Shown here: piece by piece, positions 12,579 through 63,863 of the stretch
Numbering within the stretch: the stretch's first letter is position 1
Layout of the letters: every line of letters starts with the position of its first letter
NCBI GenBank assembly: GCA_963971405.1
Contig: OZ020490.1
Coordinates: forward strand, 29,847,464-29,911,463
Direction of reading: 5' to 3'
DNA length: 64,000 bases
Source: Psococerastis gibbosa
Lineage: Eukaryota; Arthropoda; Insecta; Psocodea; Psocidae
Notes under the pieces: model-generated
Database searches by the model: none
The model's input: only the letters and a program-made list of their open reading frames with translations
What the model was told of the DNA's origin: nothing
Made by a program: the position numbers and the translations under genes

Positions 12579-12822
12579 CGCTAGGAGCCGCTAGTGGTGC
12601 TATTTTGTATGTTAATAGACCGAGTGCAACGGAGGAGCAATGCTAATATTTAAGTACCCTATACTCTTATCGCATCGCCCACCACTTGTTAGCCTAGAAG
12701 TTCCCTGCTGAGTCAAGAGTACCGATTTGTGACGCTAGGAGGTGCTAGTGGTCCTATATAGGATGTTAATAGACCGAGTGAAACGGAGGAGCGATGCGAA
12801 TAAAGGCCGTGCTCTTAGGTAC
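12445..12822 (+). pseudogene. Terminal RhoGAP exon repeated twice into its own 3' UTR
   Basis: Unit A is the real exon end (ATAGACCGAGTGCAGCGCGA to past GTACCGATTTGTGACGCTAG). Unit B, 12614-12768, repeats ATAGACCGAGTGCAACGG, a diverged TCGCATCGCCCACCACTTGT (exon: AGCATCCCACCACCTCGCCC) and AGTACCGATTTGTGACGCTA. Unit C, 12769-12822, repeats ATAGACCGAGTGAAACGG and GCGAATAAAGGCCGTGCTCT. The copies lie after the stop codon at 12578, so they are transcribed at most as 3' UTR. Confidence 0.85.
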
Positions 12823-13460: not shown

Positions 13461-13778
13461 TGGCGGGGTTTCCACCGACCTCTCATTGCAGAATGCAAAG
13501 ACATTGACGTGGTAGCAGACATTCAAGACTTAGGCGGGGTTTCCACCGACCTCGCATTGCAGAATGCAAATGACAATGAAGAAATTTATGTTTTACTCTA
13601 TGCCATAGTTGATCAATGATCATAGAGTAAAATCACAAACAAACAAACTAAAATTAAAAAATGGCGTCATGGGATATGTTAAGTACAAACATTTTAATAG
13701 ATTTCTATAAAAAGAAAAATTCAAATTTCTGTCAATGTCATTTGCATTCTGCAATGAGAGGTCGGTGGAAACCCCGCC
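13461..13778. mobile_element. PIF/Harbinger-like palindromic MITE, inner module
   Basis: The inner palindrome 13533-13778 starts GGCGGGGTTTCCACCGACCT after TTA and ends in its inverse, followed by TAA. The centre carries TTTTACTCTATGCCATAG and TGATCAATGATCA, as in the other copies. An extra partial left end lies at 13463-13530. The 3-bp TWA target and GG... ends fit PIF/Harbinger (Tourist-type) MITEs. Confidence 0.75.
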
Positions 13779-15413
13779 TAATTATAGACTGAGTCTAACA
13801 CACCACACACCATCCATAGACATGAACTATAGTCGACACTTCAATTAAAATTCTTGTCAAAATTGGATCAAATTGGTGACTGCCTGGGTTCGAGGCCCGA
13901 ATTGTAGCGTCGCCAATAAGGGCAGACAGTTAAGACGATATGGATCGGAGATATTGGTCACTCCTGGATCACGCATAAATCAATCAGTTTAAAATATTTT
14001 TTATTTAATTTACTACGTAAGCTATATGGTCATGGATATTGTAAATCATACTTCATACAAATATAATAGGAGAATGGATTACTTAACTATTGAAATCCCT
14101 AGAGTAAGGGAGGTTGAGCCCTTGACCTGATAGGTGGGGTGCAACCTCCTTACTTTGTGGAGTTATGTGGGAAAAACCAAAACGCTTCCTTCAGATTCAT
14201 CTTAGTAGGTTACTTGACAGATCTAATGTTATTTCATACCCCTAAAAATATATATATATATATATTTTTTTTTTCATATAAAATCTTATTTAGTTTGTGG
14301 AAAATTTAAGTTTGATGGTTAAACAATGGGTTGCGTGGGATTGGACTGAGTCATTTTCATGTTATCCATGTCTCTTGTAATCCACAGCTAAAAAGACACA
14401 TGTATTTATTTATTTTTTATTATATACAATTTTTCATGTAAAAGCATGTATTATTATTATTAAATTTTAAGCTACCTTATCTAGCTTATTTTATATTTTA
14501 TTGTTACAACTGTCAAGTAGCCTATTGTTGTCGGCCCCTGTTTTTAGGGTTAAATGTCACCTTTTAGCTACAAAAAGAGTAGGTGCGAGTGCAATCATTT
14601 TATGTAATTTAAACTGTTTCCGGTCTGTTATACCGTGTTCTTATTTTATGCTGTACCATAAAATGTTGGCTGTTAAGAGCAGGAACTTCGGACCTTATGC
14701 CCTTTCACATATGGTGTCTTTTCTGGCTATTTCACAAGTTTCTTTTGTTCATTCAAAGGTTTCAATGTTGAAATACTAAGACTTGAAAAATCTGCCCTAC
14801 TTGTTTGAGTATCAAACTTATTTTACCCAATAATGTATAGTTACAATGTATGAAATAGTCTTCTACTGCTTGAATAGACTAAATCATAAGTGGAGAGGTT
14901 TCAAAATATTTTGTAATCAAGAAATAACCGTGGATTTTTTAACAAAAATAATCAATTTCACGTTCCACAGCTTCAAAGTTTTGAAAATGGGCAGATGACA
15001 TATTCATAAAAGATTTGTTTAACAAAATATATTGAAATCACTAGGTACCTTAACCTTGAACAATATTTTTCTGCTTATTTTTCTTAAAGGTATTCTATGA
15101 TCCACTTTGGATTGGCTTGCTGGAGTGATTGTTCGTGAAAGGCCTGTGTACTGCTCTGTCCCAATGGTGTTGCAAACTCAGAGGTCTTCCATATTGTATT
15201 CAACACTTTTTGCCCCTTTCATGTTTATACCGGTGAATTATTTAAACGTATGCCCATGTGTACGGGAAAACTATTTGTGGCTGTTCTTAGTAGATATGCA
15301 AACAAATATGCTGAGAAAAATATTTTCAAAGGCTTCAGCTGATGATGGAACTGGAGAATGGGTCTTGGTCGATATGAAAGTGGATTAAATCTTGGATGCT
15401 CAGTTGCTACTAA
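13779..15413. other. Intergenic, nothing supported
   Basis: AT-rich sequence with an AT dinucleotide run at 14250-14266. A 93-codon reading frame at 15107-15388 has no family motif and no conserved splice context, so I do not call it. Confidence 0.35.
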
Positions 15414-16190: not shown

Positions 16191-16783
16191 GGAGAGATGG
16201 AACATTCAAGCACGCCAAAAGCATTTTTTTTAATCCTGGGGCCACCTGATACGTTTTTTCAATGGCTAGTCGCAGGAGACGTGGTATCATTTAAGTGACT
16301 TTGGTGGCAAGGTTGTAGCGTGCTTGTACTTGTGCAAGTCTCAACACACCTTGCGATCGAAGACGTGTCGTAACTCACAACACAAGTACCTATTAGGTTT
16401 CTCATTGAGGCGATTGAAGAGGGTAATCGGATACATTCATGAAATTGTTTGTATGTTATAAACTTTTTGTAAAATAGCCAATAATCAGGTGGCCCCAGAA
16501 TTCAAAAATATTTTCAGCGTGGTATCATTTAAGCGACTTTGGTGGCAAGGTGGTAGCGTGCTTGTATTTGTGTAAGTCTCAGCACACCTTGCAATCGCAG
16601 ACGTGTCGTAATTCACAACACAAGTACCTATTAGGTTTCTCAGTGAGGCGATTGAAGAGGGTAATCGGATACATTCATTAAATTGTTTGTATGCTATTCA
16701 TTTTTTTTTATAAAATAGCCAATAATCAGGTGGCCCCAGAATTCAAAAAATATTTTCAGCGCGCTCAAACGTCCCATCTCTCC
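16191..16783. mobile_element. Inverted-end element holding two tandem SINE-like units
   Basis: The left end GGAGAGATGGAACATTCAAG and the right end CGTCCCATCTCTCC pair, as do ATCCTGGGGCCACCTGAT and ATCAGGTGGCCCCAGAAT. Between them the unit GTGGTATCATTTAAG to TTCAGC (about 220 bp) stands twice in tandem (16270-16500, 16500-16760). Pieces of the same ends occur at 1195-1250, 9572-9625 and 55385-55415. Confidence 0.65.
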
Positions 16784-16989
16784 TTTATAGATCTCTAGTT
16801 TGAGTAAGGAACGCTGGACGGCACCGCTATCCGCATGGGCAGATGGAGGTTGCTTACTGTTACGGTTACTTTCCAGACGATGATGGGCCCGGGTAGAGTT
16901 CTATATTTTTGGCGCGCTTGTATTTCCCCTCTTTTCAATATCTCTCCCAGCAGCAGCCTGATCATGGCGATTATAATACCGGTATTTAT

Positions 16990-17480
16990 TTAATCCCCAG
17001 GTATTAAAAATGTAAACAAACAAATTTTGAATAGCACTTTCCATTGTACAATTATCTTGTTTACATTTTTTATACCAGGGGATTAAATAAACACCGGGGT
17101 TTATTTATTTCCCAGCAGTCTGATCGAGGCGTTTATAATACCGGGGTTAAATAAATACCCTAGGATTATAACTGTAAACAAACAAATTTTGAATAGCACT
17201 TTCCATTATAAAATTATCTTGTTTACCAGTGGATTAAATAAATACCGGTATTATAAACGCCCCGATCAGGCTGCTGGTAATAAAAATGTAAACAAATAAA
17301 TTTTGAATAGCACTTTCCATTATAAAATTATCTTGTATCTTGTAATATCTTGTATCTTGTCTTTTTAATTCCCTGGTATTAAAAATGTAAACAAGATAAT
17401 TTTTTAATGGAAAGTGCAATTAATTCAAAATTTGTTTGTTTACAGTTTTAACCCCAGGAGTAAGTTAATACCAATCGCCA
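16990..17480. repeat. Compound palindromic repeats (CCTGATCATGGCGATTATAA family)
   Basis: At least four blocks of GTAAACAAACAAATTTTGAA, AGCACTTTCCATTATAAAAT and their inverses, with end motifs around CAGCAGCCTGATCATGGCG. Related pieces lie at 12915-13035 and 26565-26600. It looks like several nested or tandem insertions of one MITE. Confidence 0.6.
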
Positions 17481-21100: not shown

Positions 21101-24100
21101 TATACTAAATTATATATTAATATATTATATTATATTATTTGAATCGAACCTACTGTAGTAGGTATTGCAATAACCAGTGTCGGGTTTGGCTCCCACAAAT
21201 GTCGCAACATACAAAATTATACAAGAGGTTTAACAACCAAAACAAAAAAACTAAAGCAAATAAACTTTACGAAATATTTGGCGGGGAATCGGAGCGTGTC
21301 GTCGCACATCATTTGTGTCTCCATTTTATAATATTGATATTGAAATATTCCTTAAAGGGCATATACAGTATGTAAGATTTTTCTGCCCCCCCCCCCCCCC
21401 AAGGCTAAACCCGACACTGGCAATACCGTAACGAGTAAATAAATAAGTGTATATAGGACTATACCTATATTAAAGGCATTATTTATTTGTTATATTATTA
21501 CCTACCATTTGATTTAAATATTGTAGATAAAGCCCTTGCTACAAGAGTCTCATTGGCAACTAGTGCCATATTTTTGTTGGCAATTCCTTTACTGCCCGCT
21601 CGAGTAGGTATTAAAGCGGTGAGGATTGTCTTCTGCTCTGTTGCTCGATCGTCTGCAGTAATGAAAACAAGGAAGGTATAAGCACGGAAGAAGTTATTGG
21701 GGGGGGGGGGGAGGGGGAGCCTCCCCCCCCCCCAATAATTCGGTTTTGGCAAGAGTTTGTAGGCCCTAATTTGCCTTTGCTCAGTTGGCAAAAACAGAGT
21801 TCCATACAAAGAAAAAAATTAAACAAAGTTGGCTTAAAATAAGATTGTACTAATGTTTTATTCTTATGTAACCAACTTGCCAACTCGCTGTGTCAAACTT
21901 AGAAAAAGGCGCGAGAAATTCAAATTTTAATTGACACAATAAGTATATCCAACTCATATACAGCGACGTATAAACTGTAAAAATAAACAAGGCCTTTGTT
22001 GGCAGACGACAAACACATGGACAATTTTCTGCAGTCAGCATGTATTGTCTATGGTCAGCATCAAAAATGAAAGAGCGTTTAGCCGGTTAAAATTGTAAAA
22101 AGCTATCTAAAAAGACAATGACAGATTCACGCTTGAGAAATCTTATATGCTTACATGAAATGCGAAAAAGAACTTGCTTCAGAACTAAATTTGGGCAATA
22201 TAGTAAAGTTGTGCTGGGCTGATTTAAAAGAACGGCATGGGGCCCGAGAAAAATTAGCCTACAAATACAAAATTGGACATCCTAAACAAAAACCTTACAT
22301 GAATATGTCTTCCATCCTTAAAGAACCGGTCCGAGTTTACTCGAACATGCTTTCCAATTTATCAACATTAGTAGATAGAGAATATGAGTAATTTCATGGT
22401 AAATAATTTTCCAGGGGTTAAATTTCCGATATCTCCGGAGGGGGGGGGGGGGTGTTGTCCTCCTGACGTCACTGGAAGTGACATAAATTCTAGATAGGTC
22501 GGACCAACACATTAATTACCACACAGCAATAGTGGCAGGGCACGCAATGCATTTGAGAGCGAATTTTCCATCATTTTTTCAAAAAAACATTTTTTCTACA
22601 AAACCAAATACTTTTCTGGGAAAGCAACCTGTCCGGTTTCGTTACTCAATTTAACACCTAATACATGCCTATGAAGGCAGAAATCATCGATGGAATGGTT
22701 TCACAGAAAAATTATTTTTTAGTCATTTTTCATTAAAATTTAGTTATTTTTATTTTTTTGCCCCCAGAAGCAAACTATCATGGGGCAAGTGACCCCCGCA
22801 TTTTATCAACATTAATAATGACTACGATATATGTGAATTTAAAAGAAATCGTTGGAGCCGTTTTTGAGAAATAATTTTTTAGACGTTTTTTTTGGAGATT
22901 TTTGAGAATAAAACCCTCCCAAATTAAGTTAGCCCCCCAAAAAAAAGAAATCGTTCCGAGGTATAATTTTGTAAACCTACATGCAAAATTTCATCAAAAT
23001 CGACCGAGTAGTTCGCCCGGAAATCGACGCACAGACATACAGACACACAGACATACAGACACACAGAGCGACAGACTGACATTTCGTAAAAACCACTTTT
23101 TGGGGTTCCTGGGACCTCAAAACGTGTAAATCCGTTGAAATCTCGGAATCGAAAATTTCGACCATCACAAAGCTTTCCTTATACTAGGCTACGTATAAAT
23201 TGGAAAGCAATTATATAATAAATTTTACTGCTTAATATAGCAATATCAATAAAAAGTATTTAAGCATTCCCTTGTAAGTTTAAAAAAAATCTGATACTTT
23301 ACCGCTGTTACAATGCGTAAAACCCAACTATTTTGCACTTAAATTTTCAATTTTTTCCCCCGGGGGAGATTCCCGGCCCCTCGCAACTTCCAGCAATATG
23401 AATAAGTATTTAAGCATTCCTTTATAAGCTATAATTAATAATAATAAATGTAGGCTATTTAGTTTCTTCAATATTACATATACAGTGATATAATGAAGTA
23501 GGGGTGGCCCAAAGGATTTCTCCCGTGCTGGGGCCCCCTTAATACTAATAACTAAGCTAAAACTAATCTAAACTAAACTAAACTAAACTAAAACTAAAAC
23601 TTTAAATAAATCTATACTTTACCGCTGTTAAAATGCGAAAACCCAACTATTTTGCACTTAAATTTTCAATTTTTCCCCCGCAGTCAGGCGCATTGGCTTT
23701 TCAAACAATGCACTGAAAATTAATGTGCCTTGTTTCGCTAACAAACACACCAATTGCACAATCGCTAAGAATTAATTTGTCTTGGTAGGCTACACATTGT
23801 AATACAATGTAATGCAACGCTTACCTAATCATCCCAGTTATTATTTTGGTAGGTCTATTATAAGTTATTTGAGTTGGCAAATTAGACACACCTCCCCCCC
23901 CCCCAAAAAAAAAATCATGCCTTCGCTACTCCCCTGGGTATAAGCACGGACTAATGATAAAGATGTAACATAGGCTATAACCTATAAATGAATTCATGAG
24001 AGTTCTATCCAATAAAAATAGAACTGCGAAACATCATTTTACTGCAAAACTTAATTTGATATATAGGTACAATAGTGTTACATTGAGAGCACGATTGGAG

Positions 24101-28760: not shown

Positions 28761-30256
28761 CCATATCGTGGAAATAAGGAGCCAAAATGCGAGTTCGTAT
28801 TCTTGTCGCACTTTGTCGATGTGCGAAAAAATGTGTTTATACGTTTCAGCTGTTAAAATAATATACATTCTATGGCCATACGGTACCTACCTACAGTGTG
28901 CATCAAAATTATTATAGCCTAAAATAAATACGGTACAGGTGCAAACAGGCATGAGCTGTATAAGTACATTGACATACTGTATCACCGTAAACGCCCCGCT
29001 AATGACCTTCGATTTACTGAATTAAAAATTTTGGGCGTTCTTAACCTGCTCACCATGAATCAATAATATATATATTAACGTCACCTGTTTATTATTGTCA
29101 TTATTTATTGCAGTAGGCCTAGACTAATGGCATATTAATTATTGACATCGCCATCTGGACTTCTTGAGGACCTGCCCGTCCCGCTCTGTAGGGGAGGTCT
29201 GCGACAGTTTTCAATTTTTGATTAAAACTACTGATGCTATATATTGTATGTGTAGGAAAAAATGTACGGGTTCACTCGTACTGGTTGTAGCATTATCAGG
29301 CAATCCCTATTACATGTGCAGTCACTGGATGAGACCGACATAGCTTATGAGAGGAGAAAATATCAACGTTGAAATTACTCGGCGTCTCCGGATATAGGTT
29401 GCTGCTTGTTAATATTTCCACAAGCTATACAGCAGTGACTAAAATCTAAAATTTCATTCAAAGTAAGACCATTGTAGACTGTGAGGTTATATATATATAA
29501 GTTATACCTTCTCATCTTCAAGTTACAGCCGGATGGCTGGTTGGCAGCAACATGTGACTTCGATGCCTTCACTCCCCTCGATCCTGGCACGCTCGCTTCA
29601 GCTCCACGTATGTCTTGGCCCCTACGTCCTCCATAATAACTTGCTATAAGTTATATACAGTACATAAAAAGTCAATGATTTTTTTTACTGACCGTAAGTT
29701 AATTTAAAAAAATTTTATACACGCGGCTTGCCCTTCAAATCCACATAGTCGGCCTATAAGTTCCATAAAAAGGCATTGAATTGTCAACTGACAACACTGG
29801 GCCGCATCCTGGAATTTCGCATCTAATTTTAGATCAGAGGACCGGGTTATTTATACGAAGCTGTGGTAAACGCCTGGAAATGTATCCATTTTGTATATCT
29901 TTTTATTATTTGAAGGGCTTATGGACTCACATTTGGCCTACTGTATATATTTGCCCATTGAATCTTGCCCCTTTTCGGACATGATTGGCACTATTTCCGT
30001 ATAAATTTTGGCCATGGTATAAACTGATGCGTAGCCTCGATGCCAACCCACATCTAATTCCAGAGACTATAATGGACAAACTGAGACATGCTTATTATTA
30101 ACACAATGTAACAGGCGTGTGCGTGACTTGATCAACTTCGGAGACCGGTCATTTTTATCCATAAACAAATTCAGGAGTAGGCCTAAGGCCGATTTCAACT
30201 TTAAAAAAAAAAAAAAAAAAAAAGCCATATCTGGTGGCTAGCTTCGAATATAACGA
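28761..30256. other. No supported gene; one SAP-like coding relic
   Basis: On the minus strand at 29630-29540 a short run reads MEDVGAKTYVELKRACQDRG, then in another frame VKASKSHVAANQPSG, resembling a SAP-type helix (LKxxCxxRGxxxSGxK). Too short to assign. An A20 run lies at 30202-30222. The rest is unexplained. Confidence 0.35.
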
Positions 30257-30957
30257 AGAACCGGTCCGAGTTTACTCGAACATGCTTTCCAATTTATCAT
30301 TTAGTAGATAGATAATATGAGTAATTTCATTGTGAATAATTTTCCTATGGTAATAATGGCAATTGGAGCGTGAATTTTCCATAATTTCTTCAAAAAATAA
30401 TTTTCTGCACAAAATCAAATCTTTTTTTTATGCAACCTTTATAGTAGGTTTTGTTACTCTATATTTAACACATACAACATACTTGAATGTAGAAATCGTC
30501 GATGGAATGGTTCCACAGGGAAAAAAAATTTTAGTCAATTTTCATGAAAATTTAGTTACTTTTATTTTTTTACCCCTAGAAGCAAACTATCAAGGGCGGG
30601 CAAGTGACCCACCGCATTTTGTTAACATTAATAACGGCTTCAATATATTACAATTGAAAAGAAATAGCTAGTTGGAGCCGTTTATGAGGAATTATTTTTT
30701 AGAGTTTTTTTTGTCGTTTTTTGAGAATAGAACTCCCCAAAATTGTGTTACTCCAAAATAAAAATAAAATCGGCTGAGTAGTTAGCCCGCAAATCGATGA
30801 ACAGACAGAGCGACAGACAGACAGACATTTCGTAAAAACCACTTTTTTTGGTTTCTGGGACCTCAAAACGTGTAAATCCGTTGAAATCTCGGAATCGAAA
30901 ATTTCGGCCATCACAAATCTTTCCTTATACTAGGCTATGTATAAATTGGAAAGCAAT
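30257..30957 (-). repeat. Repeat family R copy
   Basis: Starts ACCGGTCCGAGTTTACTCGA, ATGCTTTCCAATTTATC and ends ATGTATAAATTGGAAAGCAAT, with the GACAGACAGACAGACATTTC block. Slightly shortened internally, and lacking the poly-G run seen in other copies. Confidence 0.7.
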
Positions 30958-34702: not shown

Positions 34703-35812
34703 AATGTTTTTGCTTTCCAATTTAATATATAATGTAAGGAAATAAATAAATAAACGTTTATTTGCAAACAGACAAAGTCCAATAATATGCAAATTAACTT
34801 AACTTACTTAACTATGCTTATCATAATTTACATGTGTGATACATAACTATTGTACAATTATAATTATAAGCAGTATATCGTACATCTATTTGACAATGTG
34901 AAGATTAAATAAATAAGTTGTATACAAGTTATCTAGTTGGTAAGTAATGATAAAAATAAAAAGTAATGCTATAAAGTAATATAAAAGCTTTGTGATGATG
35001 GTCAAAATGTTCGATTCCGAGATTTCAACGGATTTACACGTTTTGAGGTCCCAGGAACCTAAAAAAGTGTTTTTTACGAAATGTCTGTCTGTCGCTCTGT
35101 CTAACTTGGTAGTGTGCACAGTGCCGGTAGGGAAACATGGTAGGACTTGTCCTGGTCACCTCCGAACTAATCGTGTGACCTCACTGTGTTTCCCAAGTGA
35201 TTCGGAATCCACTATAATCAGGAGGTCCCCTGTCCTAAGGGCTCACACCGTGGCCTGGGACTGTGTCCAAACCATAGTTACTACTACTACTACTAGGTGT
35301 TGTTAAATAGAGTAATAACAAAACCGAACAGGTCGCTTTCCCAAAAAAGTATTTGGTTTTGTGCAAAGAACATTTTTTTTTTTTGAAGAAATTATATCAA
35401 ATTCATGCTCCAATACATTGCGTGCCGTGCCATTATTACTGTGTGGTACCTAATTTATTGTCTTCCCGTTCTATAATATGGAATGCGATCGTTTAATTCA
35501 GTGCTTCGGGATAGGGGCCGTAGCCAGAGGGGGTCCAGGGGTCCAGACCCCCGCCCCCGAAACGTTTGCAGTGTACACTAGATAGAATGGAGTTTGAATG
35601 ATTTTTAACTACGAGTATATGTTATCGTATATTGAGGTTACCTCACCTCCGGTGAGATCAGATGGACCCCCCCCCCCTCCGAGGGATCCAAAACTTTACC
35701 ATAGGGAAATTATTTACTATGAAATAACTCATTATCTCTGTGTACTAACTTTATTGATATTTTGGAAAGCATGTTCGAGTACACTCGGACCGGTTCTTTA
35801 ACAAAGGGTTAG
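34703..35812 (+). repeat. Repeat family R copy with a G-family repeat in its middle
   Basis: Starts TTGCTTTCCAATTTAATATA; TTTGTGATGATGGTCAAAAT and CTGTCTGTCGCTCTGTCT lead up to 35103, and it ends GGAAAGCATGTTCGAGTACA, CTCGGACCGGTTC. The unit 35104-35297 (G family) replaces the middle. Confidence 0.65.
35104..35297 (+). repeat. G-family interspersed repeat
   Basis: AACTTGGTAGTGTGCACAGT to GACTGTGTCCAAACCATA, followed by (ACT)n. The copy at 38225-38420 is almost identical over ~185 bp and has the same ends. A short length and a trinucleotide tail suggest a SINE, but no box A/B is clear. Confidence 0.65.
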
Positions 35813-36957: not shown

Positions 36958-37125
36958 TCAATGGCCAGGTGGTAGCGTGCTTGTACATGTGCGAGTCTCT
37001 ACACGCCATGCGATCGGAGACGTGTCGTTACTCGACACAAGTACCTATTAGGTAACTTAGTGAGGTGACTGAAGAGGTCAATCGGATACATTCATTGAAT
37101 TGTTTGTATGGGCTTGTATATTAAA
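36958..37125 (+). mobile_element. SINE-like unit (GGTGGTAGCGTGCTTGTAC)
   Basis: GGTGGTAGCGTGCTTGTACA, GCGATCGGAGACGTGTCG, CACAAGTACCTATTAGG and TCGGATACATTCATTGAATT match the two tandem units inside 16191-16783. GGTAGCGTGCTTG resembles a box A; a box B is not clear. Confidence 0.6.
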
Positions 37126-38685: not shown

Positions 38686-41022
38686 ATGCAAAGGTTATTG
38701 GTAAGTCCCATCATTTTATTCTCAATTTTAGCGGGAAAAAGGAATTATTTGAGTTCTTTTAGTTAAGTTAGGTATTGCCGTAAACTAAAGATAAATACCT
38801 ATATTGCACATTGATTTTAGTGATAGCCTATTAGATACAACATACAGTAAGCGAAATGTATAAGCACTGTACGCTACAAAGATGGGGTGGCTGAGGCGCA
38901 TGGCGCACAATAAAATTTGAAAATTAGTAAAAAGTTTATCAGCCGACATATGACAAGATTAAATTATTAATGGAAAACTTGCATACATGGCCGTGCCCAG
39001 GGGGGTGGCCCAAGGGGTCCGGACCCCCCCCCCCCCAAATAATTTTTTTTTATGTTAACCTGTGTTGTTTGAAGAATTGGAATAAATTTATTTTAGTTTG
39101 AACACTGGATCTAATGGACTTTCATTAATAAATTACGTAAAAACAATTTTTGAACCCTCTCCCCCGACGAAATAATCAATCAAAGTATATTTCCAAATAC
39201 AATTTTATACAGTTTTTGTCACTTTTCCCTATGGAATAGGCCCGTCAAAATCTGATGAGCACGGCCTTGCTTGCATATAACACTTTCCAAGACCTTTTCG
39301 CCTGATGATTGATAGGACGAGCCTGTGCTGTGCAGATCCATTATATTATAACTTTATTATTAAGTCGATATATGTAGACTATCTGTTGTGTAACTACGCA
39401 TACTAACTGATATACGCCTTGTTTAAAAACCAAATATTTTTGTAGGTTGTGCCATTCCTGGTAGCTGCATGCTCCGCCCAATTCCTATTTGCCCCTGTAG
39501 GATGGAATGGAATTGGAAGCCCAATTATCGGCAGTCCACTCGTGAGGACGGTCGTTAGCAGCCCAGGCCTGGTTTCCAGCCCTGTCGTCAGTCCCATCGC
39601 TGTGCCTATCACCTCTAGTCAGTACCACGCACAGGACGAACTCGGACAGTTTGCCTTTGGCCACAGCAGTATTAACCAGGTAAGACATTGCCACTGGCCA
39701 GCTGCAGTACGAGGTGGTCCAATCGTAACGACTGTTGCTAGCAGCCCAGGCCTAATTTCCAGCCCTGTCGTAAGTCCCATCGCAGTGCTCAACACCTCTA
39801 TAGTCAGTACCACGCACAGGACGAACTCGGACAGTTTGCCTTTGGCCACAGCAGTATTAACCTGGTAAGACATTGCCACTGGCCAGCTGCAGTACGAGGT
39901 GGTCCAATCGTAACTACTGTTGCTAGCAGCCCAGGCCTAATTTCCAGTCCTGTCGTAAGCAGCCCCATCGCTGTGCTCAACACCTCTTGTCACTACCACG
40001 CACAGGACGAACTGGGACAGTTTGCCTTCGGCCACAGCATCATTAAACAATGTAGCCTAATAATAAGTACGAGGCAATCCCAACCCCGGCGTCGTTCCTA
40101 ACGCGATCATGTCGTTAGTCCCATCGTAGCATACTTCCAGTCAACAGCGTCGGCTTTACCATCCGATGAATTCAGATAGCTCACTCTCTAGCAGGCGCGG
40201 ATCTACGGGGGGGCTATGGGGGCTATACCCCCCCCCCCATTAGGGTCCTCAAAAAGCGTAAAACCCCACTATTTGAGTCCTATTTTTCACACATTTTCTC
40301 CCAGGGGAGACCCTCGGGCCCCCCTTGTGCTAGATTGTATTAATTACCTATATATAACCCTATAAGAACCCTTATTACTGTGAAAATGCGTAAAACCCCA
40401 ATATTTCAGCCCTATTTTTCAAAAAAAATCGAAATTTAATCTTACCTTGGTCTCATTCTAGATCCACGCCTGCTCTCTAGTACATCAGTAATAACCAGAT
40501 ACGGTTTGACACTGTCATATAGCCTATGCATTGTAAATTAGTGCGGTTTAGTATTATGACGTTGTCATTTGTTACCGCTTAGTCACTATATTATTGCTAG
40601 ATAAGTTAAACTTACATTGCCTTATCGTGGAGAAAATAGTTAGCTATTAAACCACAAAGTTATATAATGTTTTATAGGCCAGACAAGAAGTAAAAAGTTT
40701 CGACGGAACCGTCCGTGGTGCCTACAGCTACGTCGACCCCACTGGAAAACTCAACAACGTCCAATATCTGGCCGATAGCAACGGTTTCCAAGTGGTTGGC
40801 GCCAATAACCTTCCCGTAGCCCCCGAAGCCGTTCTTGAGCCCGTTAAGGATACTCCTGAGGTAAGTCTCAATGTAGGCTATCAGTTGTCACCTCCGTAAA
40901 ACCTGGAAGATCAGATTTTGATCATGAACAACTGAAGAAGAAATTCAGAGAAATGCGTTCAGTTGTAAAAATTTCACGATAGCTAGGTACTAGTTAAAAT
41001 CATATGATCCTGGTGAATAGTT

Positions 41023-41058
<36 letters not shown>

Positions 41059-43479
41059 TACCTTTATTTTCATTATATAAATTAAATGAGAGAGGTCTCT
41101 CATCCCATTAACAGAATAATATAAGAAATCGCGTTACAAATTACACTAATTACAGTTACAGTCACAATTCTTTCACAATTCTTTTTAAAGTCATTCTAAA
41201 TTCTATTTTAAAATGATGCTTGAGATAGCTGCCGTTACTGCACTGTTACTGTGTAAAAGACATTTTGTATGAGGGTGGATTTGAATTTCTTGTAGGGCTG
41301 TTCTTTAAAGAACTGGGGTAACACATTTCAAAAGAACTTACTGTTATTAGTCGGGGCCAGTTCCACTTTCCTCCTAGTTGCTTTCTAATTTATAGGCTAC
41401 GTAGTATAAGGAAAGCTTTGTGATGGTCGAAATTTTCGATTCCGAGATTTCAACGGATTTACACGTTTTGAGGTCCCAGGAACACAAAAAAGTGGTTTTT
41501 ACGAAATGTCTGTCTGTCTGTCTGTCTGTGCATCGATTTCCGAGCAAACTACTCGGTCGATTTGGATGAAATTTAGCATGTAGGTTTACAAAAATCATAC
41601 CTCGGGAGCATTTTTTTTATTTTCGGCCAACTAAATTTGGGGGGGTTTTATTCTAAAAAAAAAAATCCAAAAAAACGTCTAAAAAAATTATTTCTCAAAA
41701 ACGGCTTCAACGATTTCTTTTAAATTCTCATATATTGTAGTCGTCATTAATGTTGGCAAAATGCGGGGGGTCGCTTGCCCCTTGATAGTTTGCTTCTGGG
41801 GGTTAAAAAATAAAAAATAAAAAAATTTAATGAAAAATGACTAAAAAATAATTTTTCTTCGAAACCTTTCTATCGATAATTTCTACCTTCAGGCATGTTT
41901 TAGGTGTTAAATTGAGTAACTAAACCGCGGATAGGTTGCTTTCCCAAAAAAATATTTGGTTTTCACAAAAAATTATTTTTTTGAAAAAATGACAGAAAAT
42001 TCGCTCAAATGCATTGCATGCCCTGCCATTATTGCTGTGTGGTAATTAATGTGTTTGTCTGACCTATCTAGAATTTATCTCACTTTCAGTGACGTCAGGT
42101 GGACAACAACCCCCCCCCCCCCCCCCCCCGAGATATCGGAAATTTAACCACTGGAAAATTAAATACCATGAAATTACTCATTTTCTCTATCTACTAATGT
42201 TGATAAATTGGAAAGCATGTTCGAGTAAACTCGGACCGCTTTTTTATCTTGAATCAATTTGTGAAGATGATTCTGGGTTACCTGATGCTGGTTTTCTGCC
42301 CTCTATAAAATCTTAGACACGGTATTCTGAGCCCCACATAGCATCTATATATTCTCCCTTGCCTATGAGAGAATCATATTTTAGATTTATAAAGCCACCA
42401 TATACCATTTAAATTATGTGCTCTCGAGGTTACAATTTCGATGCCTTACTCGGCAAAGGTCATAAATCCAAAATCGTCATTTTTCAGGAGAGATAAAAAA
42501 CTGTTATAAAAAATCCTCGACTTTGGGGATATTTTTTAGTAATTTTCAAGTTTTTATCCGAATTTGTATTAAGTATAACAATTTGGCACCCTAAAAAAGG
42601 ATAGAATTATTATATTTTGGACTTAAGACCATTTCACACAGAGTTTGGTTTGGTAAGGAGGATTTATGTGGTTTTCTATATCCACTTTATCTCTTCATAC
42701 GATTTTATTCAGGATTTGAGTGCATTGCCACTGGAAGGAGTATTTTTTTCTGCATCCAATGATAATAATAACTCAATTTCGCATTTTTTGTATTTAGTAC
42801 CTTTGCCGAGTAAGGTATCAAATTTCTATCCGATTCCGGTACCAATGACAAGGAACTTTTAATAAAATTTTGCAGAAACTTAATCAATTTTATTTAACGA
42901 CAGGTCTTGGAAGCCCGCGCTAATTTTGCCAAAGCTTTCAAAGAAGCTCAAGAAGCCGCAGAGCCCAAGAAACCAGAAGAGGAAGCCAAATCCCGATCAA
43001 GGCGCCAAGTCATCTACTCTCCTCTAATCTCCACCCTATCCGCCAAAACCATCCTCAAGACATCCGAGCTTAAACCCATCGATGACGCCAAGGTTCCAGC
43101 TGCAACGAAGCTGGCTGAAATCAAGGAGACCGAAAAAGAAATTGTAACGCCTTTGACCTACTCTTCTGTTATCTCCTCTCCGATCTTCGCCTCATCTCTG
43201 ATTGCTCCTAGGGCTATTGTCGCTCAGCCTACCATTGTAGCTTCCCCACTCTTGGCCAGAACCGTCGTTCCTGCTGTTGCCAAAGCCACTATCACCACGC
43301 AGGAGCTAAAGACTGTCGATGATGCCAAGACTCCTGCTGCTACCAAACTTGCGGAAATCAAAGAAGAGAAAAAGGAGGTCGTCGCACCTATTGCGTACTC
43401 TTCCCCTCTTGTAGCTTCTCCTTACATTAGTTCTCCCTGGATTTCTTCTCCCTACATTGGGTCTGCCATTACCTGGTAG
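38686..43479 (+). CDS. Rebers-Riddiford cuticle protein, complete, 4 exons
   Basis: Exons 38686-38700, 39446-39679, 40678-40860, 42904-43479, all phase 0, 335 aa. The small first exon (MQRLL) and the start of exon 2 make a signal peptide (MQRLLVVPFLVAACSAQ), the usual layout of arthropod cuticle genes. The chitin-binding RR domain is split between exons 2 and 3: YHAQDELGQFAFGH, then GTVRGAYSYVDPTGKLNNVQ, YLADSNGFQVVGANNLPVAP. Exon 4 has an acidic and Lys-rich stretch, a furin-like RSRR site (residues 175-178), and two ~35-residue repeats (LKPIDDAKVPAATKLAEIKE at about 200; LKTVDDAKTPAATKLAEIKE at about 269) separated by Ser/Pro/Val-rich sequence. It is secreted into the cuticle. Exon 2 is followed by decayed copies of itself. 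The poly(A) signal is near 43868. Confidence 0.93.
38992..39275. mobile_element. hAT-like MITE piece in cuticle intron 1
   Basis: GGCCGTGCCCAGGGGGGTGG, CCGGACC with C14, and at the far side GATGAGCACGGCC. The ends are inverted over GGCCGTGC; no exact 8-bp duplication was found. Confidence 0.5.
39700..40145 (+). pseudogene. Two good and one poor tandem copies of cuticle exon 2
   Basis: Copy 2 (39716-39864) and copy 3 (39899-40050) repeat AGCAGCCCAGGCCT, TTTCCAGCCCTGTCGTAAGT, CACGCACAGGACGAACT, TTTGCCTTTGGCCACAGCA. Copy 2 keeps a donor (CTG|gtaagac), and the intron start ACATTGCCACTGGCCAGCTG is copied too. A faint fourth copy runs 40066-40145. An insertion near CACCTCTATAGTCAG puts copy 2 out of frame, so it cannot replace exon 2. 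Confidence 0.9.
40192..40472. mobile_element. hAT-like MITE (CAGGCGCGGATC ends), TSD CTCTCTAG
   Basis: The ends CAGGCGCGGATCTACG and TAGATCCACGCCTG are flanked by CTCTCTAG at 40184-40191 and 40473-40480. A C13 run lies near the left end, with two copies of the GCGTAAAACCCC...CCCAGGGGAGACCCTCGGG module. Confidence 0.88.
41023..41058 (+). repeat. (AAT)n microsatellite
   Basis: About 12 uninterrupted AAT units in intron 3 of the cuticle gene. Confidence 0.9.
41380..42243 (+). repeat. Repeat family R, most complete plus-strand copy
   Basis: Starts GCTTTCTAATTTATAGGCTA and ends ATAAATTGGAAAGCATGTTC, GAGTAAACTCGGACCG. Internal (GTCT)n at 41507-41530 and C17 at 42111. Used as the reference for the other copies. 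Confidence 0.75.
42425..42835. repeat. Palindromic element in cuticle intron 3
   Basis: CGATGCCTTACTCGGCAAAG (about 42433) and its inverse CTTTGCCGAGTAAGGTATC (about 42802) bound an AT-rich stretch. The inner arms are weak. It is a probable MITE with unclear ends. Confidence 0.45.
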
Positions 43480-44465: not shown

Positions 44466-44650
44466 TTAGGCTGCAGATGTACATAATTATACATGCTTAA
44501 AGCTAGCGTTATAGTCAAAAACTGTTGCACAGACTTAATTTTAACTTTTTAGCTGTCAATGAACAATATTTCTACTATAGCATAAACAGCCCAATGCAGG
44601 CTATTTTGTTGACAACTCTGGTAACATCTTCATGAGACATTTTTCTCTTA

Positions 44651-45034
44651 GGTGCCCATTCCATTGACCGGCTAGGGCTATTTCCAAAAACGGTGACGTG
44701 GTAGCAGACATTCAAGACTAAGGTTGCGTTTCGAACGACCTCGCATTGCAGAATGCAAATGACATTGACGGAAATTAGAATTTTTCTTTTTAAAGATATC
44801 TATTAAAATGTTTATACTTAACATATCCCATGACGACATTTTTTAATTTTAGTTTGTTTGTTTGTGATTTTACCGTATGATCATTGATCAATTTTAACTA
44901 TGGCATAGAGGAAAATAAACATTTCAGTCAATTTTGCAATGCGAGGTCGGTGGAAACGTCACCTTAGTCTTGAATGTCTGCTACCACGTCACCGTTTTCG
45001 GAAATAGCCCTAGCCGGTCAATGGAATGGGCACC
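44651..45034. mobile_element. Composite Harbinger-like palindrome, TTA duplication
   Basis: The outer ends GGTGCCCATTCCATTGACCG and the inverse GGTCAATGGAATGGGCACC are flanked by TTA (44648-44650, 45035-45037). Inside lies a second palindrome that starts at GGTTGCGTTTCGAACGACCT, with the TGATCATTGATCA-type centre. It sits 31 bases beyond the stop codon of the threonine aldolase gene, so that gene's 3' UTR must run into it. Confidence 0.88.
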
Positions 45035-45064
45035 TTAGCCAGGTGATCAGGCTGTAGATGCATG

Positions 45065-55364: not shown

Positions 55365-55571
55365 TAAGGAAATGTTCTCTGCGGCAGCGAATGTCCCATC
55401 TCTCCAAAATGGAGCTCTAGTCCAGGGGTTCCCAAACTTTTTTGGAGGTGGTGCCCCGCAGCATGGCCTGAACTTATAGCTAATGCATATTCAGTATTGT
55501 ATATTATATAGGCCTACATATGAACATATAATATCTACCCTGACAAAATTCAACTTCTCAAATACAAATAA

Positions 55572-56367
55572 ACCGGTCCGAGTTTACTCGAATATGCTTT
55601 CCAATTTATAAAGTAGTAGGCTAGATGGACATCATGGTTCATTTCATATTTCATTGTAAATAATTTCCTTAAGGTTAAATTTCGGATCCCTCGGGGGGGG
55701 GGGGGGAGTCCACCTCACTATATTAAAAACCACTTAAAATTAAATTGCATATTCTGGAACGAACAGACCAATATATTGTAACAGTATAGTAACAATGACA
55801 GGGCAGGCAATGTATTTTCCATTATTTCTTCAAAAAATAATTTTTTGCCCAGAACCAAATATTTTTTTGGGAAAATTATTTTTTAGTCATTTTTCATGAA
55901 AATTTAGTTATTTTTATTTTTTCACCCCCAGAAGCAAACTATCATGGGGCATGCGACCCACCGCATTTTGTTGACATTAATGACGACTTCAATATACAGT
56001 AGGCCTATGTGAATTTAAAAGAAATCGTTGGAGCTGTTTTGAGAAATAATTTTTTTTATACGTTTTTTTGGAGTTTTTTGAGAATAAAACCCCCCAAAAT
56101 TGAGTTAGCCCCAAATAACCTACATGCCAAAATTCATCAAAATCAACCGTGTAGTTTGCCCAGAAATCGACGCACAGGCAGATGTGACAGAGCGACAGAG
56201 CGACAGACAGAGCGACAGACAGACACTTCGTAGAAACCACTTTTTTGGGTTCCTGGGACCTCAAAACGAGTAAATCAGTTGAAATCTCGGAATCGAAAAT
56301 TTCGACCATCACAAAGCTTTCCTTAAATTTATACTACGTATAAATTGGAAAGCAATAAATAACCCCT
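55572..56367 (-). repeat. Repeat family R copy
   Basis: Starts CCGGTCCGAGTTTACTCGAA, TATGCTTTCCAATTTATA and ends CGTATAAATTGGAAAGCAAT. It has G14, AGAGCGACAGAGCGACAGAC and CACTTCGTAGAAACCACTTT. Confidence 0.72.
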
Positions 56368-57122
56368 AATTGGCGGGAAGTTAAATTGTTTCCATTTTAA
56401 GAAAAAAAAAATACTTTTATAGCATTAAGTGCCTAGTGCCTATAAAAGCACCGCGGTGCACAGTTTGGGAACCCCTGCGCTCTGATAGTCCTATCAATGA
56501 GATCTGGATACGCGCCTGGGTCCACTTGACAGTATTCAATACAAATATAGTCTAAAACTAAATTCATTAATATACACTGGCCAACGCAAAGACTAGTTTA
56601 ATTCAATGGCACACTGCCAATTATATGAGCTACAACCAGTAGATCGTCTTAACATGCCGTATAGGCCTACAATGCTATGTTTATCTCATAGCAAGCACTT
56701 ATATCTTAAGAGCAAATGGAACCCCTCACTTCCCATTTTTGTGCAAAGTCGAATTTCCTCCGATCCATGCCCTATAAGACGCAGTTACAAGACGTCCTTT
56801 ATCACTTCAGGGAGCATATATACCCATCAGCGGCCTAAAAGACATGTAACTAGCGCTCTGTTTGACTAATGATTGCCGCTACGCACAATTGATGACAGCA
56901 GACTGTAGACTACACTGTAACAGGCGGGGATCTAGAATGAGACCAAAGAGGGGGCTAAGATTAAATACGAATAAAAAAGATGGATTGCAAAAAATTGCCA
57001 ATATATATTCAGAGGTGGACCCAGACCTCTTTAAAGGGGGCGTGACAATAGGTTTTCGAAGGGGGCGGCGTATAATTTGGCGCCCCTCCAACCATTTTCA
57101 TAAAAGTGCATAAAATAGGTAA

Positions 57123-57518
57123 GGCGCGGTTTCCACCGACTGGCTAGGGCTAAACACAAATACGGTGACGTGGTAACAGACATTCATGACTTAGGCGGTG
57201 TTTCCACCGACCTCGCATTGCAGAATGCAAATGACATTGACGGAAATGTTTGTTTTTCTTTTTTATAGAAATCTATTAAAATGTTTGTAATTAACATATC
57301 CCACGACACCATTTTTTAATTTTAGTTAGTTTGCTTGTGATTTTACTCTATGATCATTGATCAATTTTAACTATGGCATAGAGTAAAACAAACATTTCCG
57401 TCAATGCCACTTGCATTCTGCAATGCGAGGTCGCTGGAAACCCCGCCTAAGTCTTGAATGTCTGCTACCACGTCACCGTTTTTGTATTTAGTCCTAGCCG
57501 GTGGGTGGAAACCCCGCC
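57123..57518. mobile_element. Composite Harbinger-like palindrome, TAA duplication
   Basis: The outer ends GGCGCGGTTTCCACCGACTG and the inverse are flanked by TAA (57120-57122, 57519-57521). The inner palindrome starts GGCGGTGTTTCCACCGACCT. The centre is ATGATCATTGATCAATTTTA. Confidence 0.85.
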
Positions 57519-58545: not shown

Positions 58546-59019
58546 TATTTTTTTTTTTTATTAAAATGAAATACCACGAAATCACGAGTAATCTAATTAA
58601 TTATGAGCCAGAGGGTTCGAAAATATGAAAAGGGGCCCGGGGGTTTTACGCATTTCCAGAGCAATAAGGTTTCTATATTATGAGGAATTAATACAATTAG
58701 GCACAAGGGGGCCCGGGGGGTCTCCCCCGGGAGAAAATGTGTGAAAAATAGGGCTGAAATAGTGGGGGTTTACGCATTTTGAGGAACCGAATCTAATGTT
58801 CAGGCCAACAGTGAGTGCTATGACAAGCGGCTTGGTTGGTAGAATGCAAATATGTCTCATGCCTCTACTAGCTGCAACAAATTGCTGATACTGTAGCTAG
58901 ATCATAGGCGAAAATATTTCATATATATATATATACTGTATGCGCATATTCACCTCTGACTGTGGATATACTTGTATATGATATTATCACATACGGACTT
59001 CGAATATTGGTGAATTCGT

Positions 59020-60246: not shown

Positions 60247-60537
60247 TAAGGTAATAACCTAGGTGCTTATCAATAATGGCAGGCTGATTATCTACGTCAT
60301 AATGATTTGAGTTTTTTTATAAGTCTAATAGTACCTATAATTGTGCGTTTAAGAGGAAATTGTACGGTATCGATAGGGATTAAAATATACACCTCAGAAT
60401 AGAAAAGTGTAATTTATTTCTTCAAAAACTGCTATAATCGTTTACAAAACTTTTCAGTCGCCTCACGAAAGTAACCTAATATAGGACAGGTGATTGAATC
60501 CAGTTACAACGCGTCTCTGATCACATGATATTCCATA

Positions 60538-60838
60538 GGCGCCCATTCCACCGACCGGCTAGGGCTATTCACAAAAACGGTGACGTGGTAGCAGACATTC
60601 AAGACTTAGGTAGCGTTTCCACCGACCTCGCATTGCAGATTGCAAATGACATTGACGGAAATGTTTTTTTTTTTAATAGAAATCTATTAAAATGTTTGTA
60701 ATTAACATATCCCATGAAGCCATTTTTTAATTTTAGTTTGTTTGTTTGTGATTTTACTGTATGATCATTGATCAATTTTAACTATGGCATAGAGGAAAAT
60801 AAACATTTCCGTCAATTCTGCAATGCGAGGTCGGTGGT
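60538..60838. mobile_element. Composite Harbinger-like palindrome, right end missing
   Basis: GGCGCCCATTCCACCGACCG to the inner right arm GCAATGCGAGGTCGGTGG, after which the outer right arm is absent. The inner part is almost identical to 63218-63598. Confidence 0.8.
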
Positions 60839-62205: not shown

Positions 62206-62599
62206 CAGGCGCGGATCTAGAATTAGACCAAGGAGGGGGCTAAGATTAAATACGAATAAAAAAGATGAATTGCAAAAAATTGCCAATGTAATCAGAGCTG
62301 TGGTCCCGCAGACCCCGTAAAAGGTTAGGGGGCGTAACGATAGGATTTCGAAGGGGGCGGTGTATAATTTGGCGCCCCTCCAACCATTTTCATAAAAGTG
62401 TAGAAAATGAAGAAAACATACGATACGCAGCTTTTAAATTAATGACCTTCTATAGTGTCCTTTGCGCATGAGTCAGAGAGTTCCCCCGGGAGAAAATTTG
62501 TTAAAAACAGGACTGAAATAGTGGGGTTTTACGTATTTTGATTTGAGGAACCTAATGGGGGCGCCATAGCCCCCCCCCCCCCCCGTAGATCCGCGCCTG
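62206..62599. mobile_element. hAT-like MITE (CAGGCGCGGATC ends), TSD TACGCATG
   Basis: The ends CAGGCGCGGATCTAGA and CGTAGATCCGCGCCTG are flanked by TACGCATG at 62198-62205 and 62600-62607. C14 lies next to the right end. The inside matches 56921-57600. Confidence 0.92.
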
Positions 62600-62665: not shown

Positions 62666-63863
62666 CTACGCTGCAATAGAATGTTTTTCTTTGAGCTCCT
62701 GCGCAATATAAGCAATTTTTTTGACTATTCTTCGGACGTCTTCGTCGGTGATCTCCCAGTACACGACTAGTCTGACGATGGTATTGTTCTTCGGGGAGAC
62801 TCGAATAATACATGCTGCTTCTCCTATAGCCTTTGTCTCATCTTCTGTCACCTAAAATAAATAAATAAACAATATGGATTGTCTCTTCCAGCGGATAGTG
62901 GATCCACCTGTTTTATACGTTACTTGGCCGGAAAATGTGTAACAATAGTGTGGAATTATAGAACAGTGTGTCGCAAAATAGGGGTATAGGTAAGAAGCAA
63001 AACCCTTTGCAAAGCAAGAAGTGAATGTTTAGAAAGTGGTTCGAAGTTTTTCACATGGAGCAAGACACCAAAACTTATTTCTAGTCATTAAATCTTGTTT
63101 CCGCGAATCACTAGAGAAGAATTCGGGGGAAAGTCAGAGAGATGATCACAAAGTTACTATAACGGTACGTAATTTTGAGGTTAGCATTACACGAATAATG
63201 TCAATACGAGTAGATAAGGCGCCCATTCCATTGACCGGCTAGGGCTATTTCCAACAACGGTGACGTGGTAGCAGACATTCAAGACTTAGGTAGCGTTTCC
63301 ACCGACCTCGCATTGCAGATTGCAAATGACATTGACGGAAATGTTTTTTTTTTTAATAGAAATCTATTAAAATGTTTGTAATTAACATATCCCCTGAAGC
63401 CATTTTTTAATTTTAGTTTGTTTGTTTGTGATTTTACTGTATGATCATTGATCAATTTTAACTATGGCATAGAGGAAAATAAACATTTCCGTCAATTCTG
63501 CAATGCGAGGTCCGTGGAAACGCCACCTAAGTCTTGAATGTCTGCTACCACGTCACCGTTGTTGGAAATAGCCCTAGCCGGTCAATGGAATGGGCACCTA
63601 TGTAGAGGATACACGTATATATTCTTGTCGGGGCTTGAGATCCAGCGGTTAAGACGAAGCCTCGGTTAGGCGTAGATCGTGGGTTCGAATCCCGCCAATC
63701 CCAGTTTTTTATATCCTCCAATTTCGGTTATAATATACCTGACATAGACGGCTGCAGAAGTCGGTTGCCGAAGAAAAATCAGTATTTAGGTGCACCATGA
63801 GAATATTTGTGTGCAATCCCTCCAGGTCGACACGCAGATACTCGCTGTTGCACTCAGCAATAC
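62666..63863 (-). CDS. Second L-threonine aldolase gene, last two exons (rest beyond the window)
   Basis: Exons 63863-63739 (125 nt) and 62851-62666 (186 nt, to the stop). The first reads [40 protein letters not shown]; the second reads VTEDETKAIGEAACIIRVSP, YWEITDEDVRRIVKKIAYIA and ends HSIAA. The sizes and phases equal those of the neighbour's last two exons (125 nt, then V-T-start). The residues are clearly similar but diverged, so this is an old tandem duplication with both copies apparently under selection. The last intron holds a composite MITE and a SINE. Confidence 0.9.
63218..63598. mobile_element. Composite Harbinger-like palindrome
   Basis: The outer ends GGCGCCCATTCCATTGACCG and the inverse; TAA on the left, TAT on the right. 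The inner palindrome starts GGTAGCGTTTCCACCGACCT. It lies in the last intron of the second threonine aldolase gene. Confidence 0.85.
63625..63724 (+). mobile_element. SINE with tRNA-like head beside a splice donor
   Basis: GGGGCTTGAGATCCAGCGGT, TAGGCGTAGATCGTGGGTTC, GAATCCCGCCAATCCCAGTT, TTTTATATCCTCCAATTTCG. Same family as 6840-7020. It ends about 15 bases from the donor at 63738 of the minus-strand gene. Confidence 0.72.

Follow-up and report, generated by a model that had tools for sequence, protein, structure and literature searches.

Exon duplicates that decay within their own gene have been described as pseudogenic exons in four mammalian genomes (DeLima Morais and Harrison 2009, PMC2718932). 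The array reported here resembles them in that duplicated exon sequence has been disabled by a frameshift inside its own gene, whereas here it is the end of an exon with its donor site that is repeated, in tandem and with one copy chimeric, and the described cases are mammalian. Tandem exon duplications, some of them intronic and unannotated, form a second related group (PMC9013439 and the 2002 survey cited there), which shares with the present locus an intronic homologue lying beside its parent exon, although here the duplicated exon is partial and lacks an acceptor. A third comparison is offered by the Rogers model of intron gain by tandem duplication of an AGGT segment, as described in PMC4974935, in which the GT of the first copy and the AG of the second delimit a removable intron and the protein remains unchanged. 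The likeness to this model lies in a tandem duplication across a CAG/GTAAG boundary (the slash marking the splice point), while the source segment is here an existing exon/intron border. The same paper mentions an 83-bp tandem duplication inside an intron that left the gene structure unchanged. Thus, the present array is a further case of a known kind, left by ordinary intragenic duplications, a process already well known, and opens no new question by itself. Among the titles and abstract openings of literature on exon duplication, cuticle proteins and crustaceans, none concerned a duplicated cuticle exon.

The array lies in a window of 64,000 nucleotides from the psocid Psococerastis gibbosa, in an arthropod cuticle protein gene whose joined exons 2–4 match Chitin_bind_4 (PF00379) at residues 63–122 with an E value of 5.2e-14, the domain by which RR-type cuticle proteins are recognised. 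The joined exons encode 330 residues without a stop, followed by the stop that closes the frame at 43479, and both the exon 2/3 and the exon 3/4 junctions are in phase 0. Exon 2 encodes a signal-peptide-like start, as judged by eye, and the first 16 residues of the Chitin_bind_4 match. Exon 1 of the gene was not located, and a search of viral_contigs for relatives by means of the exon 3 peptide returned five stretches that matched a pattern, none of which encodes a relative.

39446..39679, plus strand: exon 2, 78 codons, starting and ending in phase 0, with the acceptor TTGTAG before 39446 and the donor CAG/GTAAGA at 39680
40678..40860, plus strand: exon 3, 61 codons, phase 0, encoding most of the Chitin_bind_4 match
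42904..43479, plus strand: exon 4 to the stop codon

The head-to-tail repetition of the end of exon 2 that the first-pass annotation had noticed is confirmed by self-comparison: Tandem Repeats Finder reports an array at 39534–40046 (period 185, 2.8 copies, 90% matches, score 822), and BLAST of the window against itself recovers it with an E value of 9e-124. Its start had been placed too late, at 39700, since the repeated region begins at 39534, inside exon 2. The same self-BLAST, at E values up to 1e-5, gave no match to exon 2 elsewhere in the window beyond the array. The acceptor of exon 2 and its first 88 nt lie outside the repeated unit, and neither an acceptor nor exon 3 sequence is found within the repeats.

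39534..39716, plus strand: parental unit, 183 bp, consisting of the last 146 nt of exon 2, the donor and 37 nt of intron 2
39717..39901, plus strand: copy 2, 185 bp, chimeric, of the older-copy type in its 5' half and of the exon 2 type in its 3' half and spacer
39902..40049, plus strand: copy 3, the older copy, with an open frame, a 3-nt insertion and a destroyed donor
40069..40129, plus strand: trace of a further copy, starting with GTACGAGG and matching at 18 of 20 nt in 40110–40129

It had been stated that each unit comprises an exon end, a donor and the start of the intron, which is true of exon 2 and copy 2 but not of copy 3: where exon 2 reads AACCAG/GTAAGA, copy 3 has AAACAATGTAGCC, and its donor is gone. 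Homology of copy 3 is good to about 40049, and its spacer beyond this point is mostly unrecognisable except for GTACGAGG. The faint additional repeat suspected beyond copies 2 and 3 is also present, as 40110–40129 matches copy 2 at 18 of its 20 positions, with a local score that was reached by one of 2000 dinucleotide shuffles and by none of 3947 plus-strand segments of 141 nt drawn at random from the window. This resemblance suggests that the segment is the trace of an older copy, and that at least one copy preceded copy 3.

Copies 2 and 3 had been regarded as closer to each other than either is to exon 2, with the implied history of two sister copies of one unit. The first statement is correct for the 5' half of copy 2, which is 95.0% identical to copy 3 and 83.8% to exon 2, and is reversed in the 3' half, where identity is 98.4% with exon 2 and 85.9% with copy 3; moreover, the 37-nt spacers of exon 2 and copy 2 are 100% identical. 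The sister-copy history has to be abandoned, as the alignment presents copy 2 as a chimera that combines exon 2 with an older copy and changes type at a 2-nt insertion.

39799..39800, plus strand: 2-nt insertion, TA or AT depending on the alignment, located within the 9 nt over which copy 2 changes from one type to the other

Before the insertion, 12 alignment columns unite copies 2 and 3 against exon 2 and one unites exon 2 with copy 3, while exon 2 and copy 2 are united by four events (three substitutions and one 3-nt indel). After it and up to the donor, the corresponding numbers are zero for copies 2 and 3, one for exon 2 with copy 3, and eight for exon 2 with copy 2. The difference is significant (Fisher p = 0.0013) for these hand-entered counts, which left out both the 2-nt insertion, found in copy 2 only, and the columns past the donor, in which the alignment of copy 3 is poor and all differences group exon 2 with copy 2. 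In a break-point scan the insertion is the best position for the switch, with an equally good value in 81 of 20,000 label permutations. Overall similarity can thus mislead in arrays of this kind, as a shifted second duplication between an exon and its older intronic copy yields a hybrid.

From this pattern we infer an order of two events. Firstly, the last 146 nt of exon 2, the donor and 37 nt of intron would have been duplicated into intron 2, giving today's copy 3, which would have lost its donor afterwards. The second event would have been the later tandem duplication of a 183-bp segment that starts in mid exon 2, takes in the donor and spacer and ends midway through the old copy, via an unequal crossover between the two homologous stretches or via break repair. 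Since the newer unit runs from mid exon 2 to the middle of the older copy, copy 2 corresponds to the hybrid that necessarily results from such an event. Between the two copies of the newer event, 177 of 182 aligned bases are identical (97.3%), with four additional gap columns, and identity across the old split is 82.5–87.5%. The 2-nt insertion would have been left at the join by the event or added after it; because it falls within the 9-nt switch interval, it is probably the scar of the join, with a later TA slippage as a possible alternative. Gene conversion of copy 2 by exon 2 is likewise possible and would also yield a mosaic, although it would not explain the position of the insertion.

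The copies are very probably non-functional tandem duplicates of the end of exon 2, that is, pseudogenic fragments that would be removed together with intron 2. The unit leaves out the first 88 nt of exon 2, so that every copy lacks a homologous acceptor, and the copies are accordingly best assigned to intron 2. Six AG sites in the array are acceptor-like, with at least 10 pyrimidines in 15 positions; they were rejected as acceptors of cassette exons, none being homologous to the acceptor of exon 2, which itself has 8 of 15 pyrimidines by the same kind of count, so that the count does not discriminate. A partial exon without an acceptor is not a candidate for a mutually exclusive exon, and a function as a mutually exclusive or cassette tandem exon fails on the missing homologous acceptor, on the out-of-phase donor of copy 2 and on the lost donor of copy 3. 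Intron gain by AGGT duplication was rejected as well, as copy 2 ends in TG (39863–39864) and copy 3 has CAATG there, where AG is needed. As for the marks of a pseudogenic exon, the copies derive from an exon of the same gene, and copy 2 carries a frameshift through its 2-nt insertion, with a stop in exon 3 if spliced; copy 3 alone has neither a frameshift nor a premature stop, its frame being open, though its donor is lost.

The predicted consequences for splicing are given here with the donors of the array compared with the consensus CAG/GTAAGT.

39865..39870, plus strand: copy 2 donor GTAAGA in the context CTG/GTAAGA, matching the consensus at 7 of 9 positions; its use would lead to a stop in exon 3
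39770..39775, plus strand: cryptic donor GTC/GTAAGT in copy 2, where exon 2 has GTCAGT; its use would add 90 nt

The donor of exon 2 at 39680 matches at 8 of 9 positions, against 7 of 9 for that of copy 2. As we infer from these matches, splicing would continue from the better donor at 39680 to exon 3, and the copies would be removed with the intron. The earlier description of the copy 2 donor as usable-looking but in the wrong phase is borne out, the phase being wrong because of the 2-nt insertion: its use is predicted to give 419 nt of exon, two bases over, with a stop at nt 14–16 of exon 3. Occasional use of this donor would yield a transcript with a premature stop. Such a transcript would be expected to decay under the rule that relates premature stops to exon junctions, as the predicted stop lies about 170 nt upstream of the junction between exons 3 and 4. 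At 39717–40049, gene prediction by homology could report exons that are false.

The alternatives to decaying fragments carry confidences that are not mutually exclusive with that of the preferred reading or with each other, since an assembly error of one unit is compatible with a decaying older copy. The best-surviving one, itself unlikely, is that a donor within copy 2 is really used, with 39865 leading to a premature stop and down-regulation via decay, or 39770 leading to 30 extra residues. The 7 of 9 matches at 39865 are in its favour, as a score of at least 7 of 9 is found at only 44 of the 3420 plus-strand GT sites of the window. Moreover, the frame of exon 2 runs open through copy 2 to a stop at 39866–39868, and use of 39770 is predicted to lengthen exon 2 by 90 nt that are open and in frame with exon 3. 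The substitutions also deserve attention here: in the 5' halves (39719–39798 and 39904–39985), all four substitutions that arose after the newer event and are private to copy 2 or copy 3 are synonymous in the exon 2 frame, with P of about 0.006–0.010 under neutrality for a pattern spotted post hoc in small numbers. The translations of these two halves differ only by an inserted serine, the one indel being of 3 nt. Together, the four synonymous changes and the 3-nt indel are a small hint of coding constraint, which counts against the decay reading. The total becomes four of five when the one remaining private change is included, an A to T substitution at 39863 that weakens the donor and, read in the frame of exon 2, is non-synonymous. 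That copy 3 has an open frame was not accepted as a sign of coding, as 63% of random simulations with an equal number of changes stay open. Against the use of a copy 2 donor stand the better donor of exon 2, which is also nearer to its acceptor, the loss of the A at position -2 from the copy 2 donor, and the poor exon side of site 39770, which has C at -1, matches at just 6 of 9 positions and falls outside the list of sites with at least 7.

Marginally less likely still is an assembly artefact, in which an extra unit would stem from haplotypes or from a misresolved repeat. Heterozygous haplotypes of outbred arthropods can differ to about the extent seen between the copies of the newer event, and the identity of these copies thus leaves room for such an error. 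However, the 3' half of copy 3 differs from exon 2 by 12.5%, a distance judged too great for alleles, and by this judgement at least one duplication is real; furthermore, the chimeric unit and its 2-nt insertion fit the join of a duplication rather than a duplicated haplotype.

It is very improbable that the array is a nascent device for competition between 5' splice sites, in which unequal crossover would keep renewing the donor, yielding a longer protein through 39770 or a decay-bound transcript through 39865, with the 5' halves weakly constrained.

The comparison of exon 2 with copy 3 has a bearing on the last alternative. It counts 12 synonymous and 11 non-synonymous changes, with 15 of the 23 at third positions, against a mean of 6.1 synonymous changes under random change (P 0.004); these counts are unpolarised and take in both branches, so that the excess is expected with exon 2 alone constrained and the copy free. 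Least probable of all is that the copies are what is left of exon 2 from a tandem paralogue since lost, an idea favoured by the frequent clustering of cuticle genes in tandem and by the synonymous excess, which is anticipated anyway, and opposed by a unit that starts inside exon 2, ends 37 nt into the intron and is repeated without acceptor or exon 3.

The first-pass annotation had also likened the cuticle gene to a RhoGAP gene in the same window. That gene is real, its three joined upstream exon pieces matching PF00620 with an E value of 8.2e-42, and the last exon at 12363–12577 would belong to it by position; 183 residues from the end of this exon gave no significant Pfam family. The RhoGAP array (12447–12815) repeats pieces of the last coding exon, including the codons for STDL and the stop, together with 3' flank.

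12447–12493 with 12769–12815: RhoGAP array pair, 77% identical
12562–12648 with 12716–12802: RhoGAP array pair, 90% identical, spacing 154

Both genes have thus a nearby duplication of an exon end, but the likeness goes no further, as the RhoGAP unit spans a stop codon and contains no donor. When the window was scanned for repeats on the same strand, at least 60 nt long and offset by 80–500, seven rows resulted, two of which are the cuticle array and five of which fall at four other places, with offsets of 154–322.

12562/12716, same strand: repeat from the offset scan, in the RhoGAP array
16280/16518, same strand: repeat from the offset scan
16951–17336, same strand: repeat from the offset scan, two rows
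23276/23598, same strand: repeat from the offset scan

Among these four places, only the 16280 pair is arranged head to tail, and in the rest spacers separate the copies. Short-range duplication of this size is not rare in the window, and as such repeats occur at three further places besides RhoGAP, their presence in two genes needs no gene-specific cause. The head-to-tail duplication at 16280–16761 is of about 240 bp and 92% identical, and a related stretch lies at 36962–37110.

Several mobile-element-like sequences were observed in the same DNA. Just past the array in intron 2 (within 40184–40480), a 281-bp element at 40192–40472 ends in 15-nt inverted repeats, CAGGCGCGGATCTAC and CAGGCGTGGATCTAG, that match by eye at 13 of 15 positions, and is flanked by identical 8-nt direct repeats, CTCTCTAG. 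Target duplications of 8 bp are typical of hAT elements, and we take the sequence to be a hAT-like MITE; stretches related to it lie at 58640–58792 and 62476–62599. A repeat family at 41375–42246, with relatives on both strands that include 22319–23213, 30256–30957, 34984–35801 and 55571–56362, is probably a transposable element. Finally, a MITE-like dispersed repeat with inverted termini (GGCGGGGTTTCCACCGAC..., as read at 13462–13781) is found in at least five places, namely 13462–13781, 44650–45035, 57116–57518, 60537–60837 and 63217–63600.
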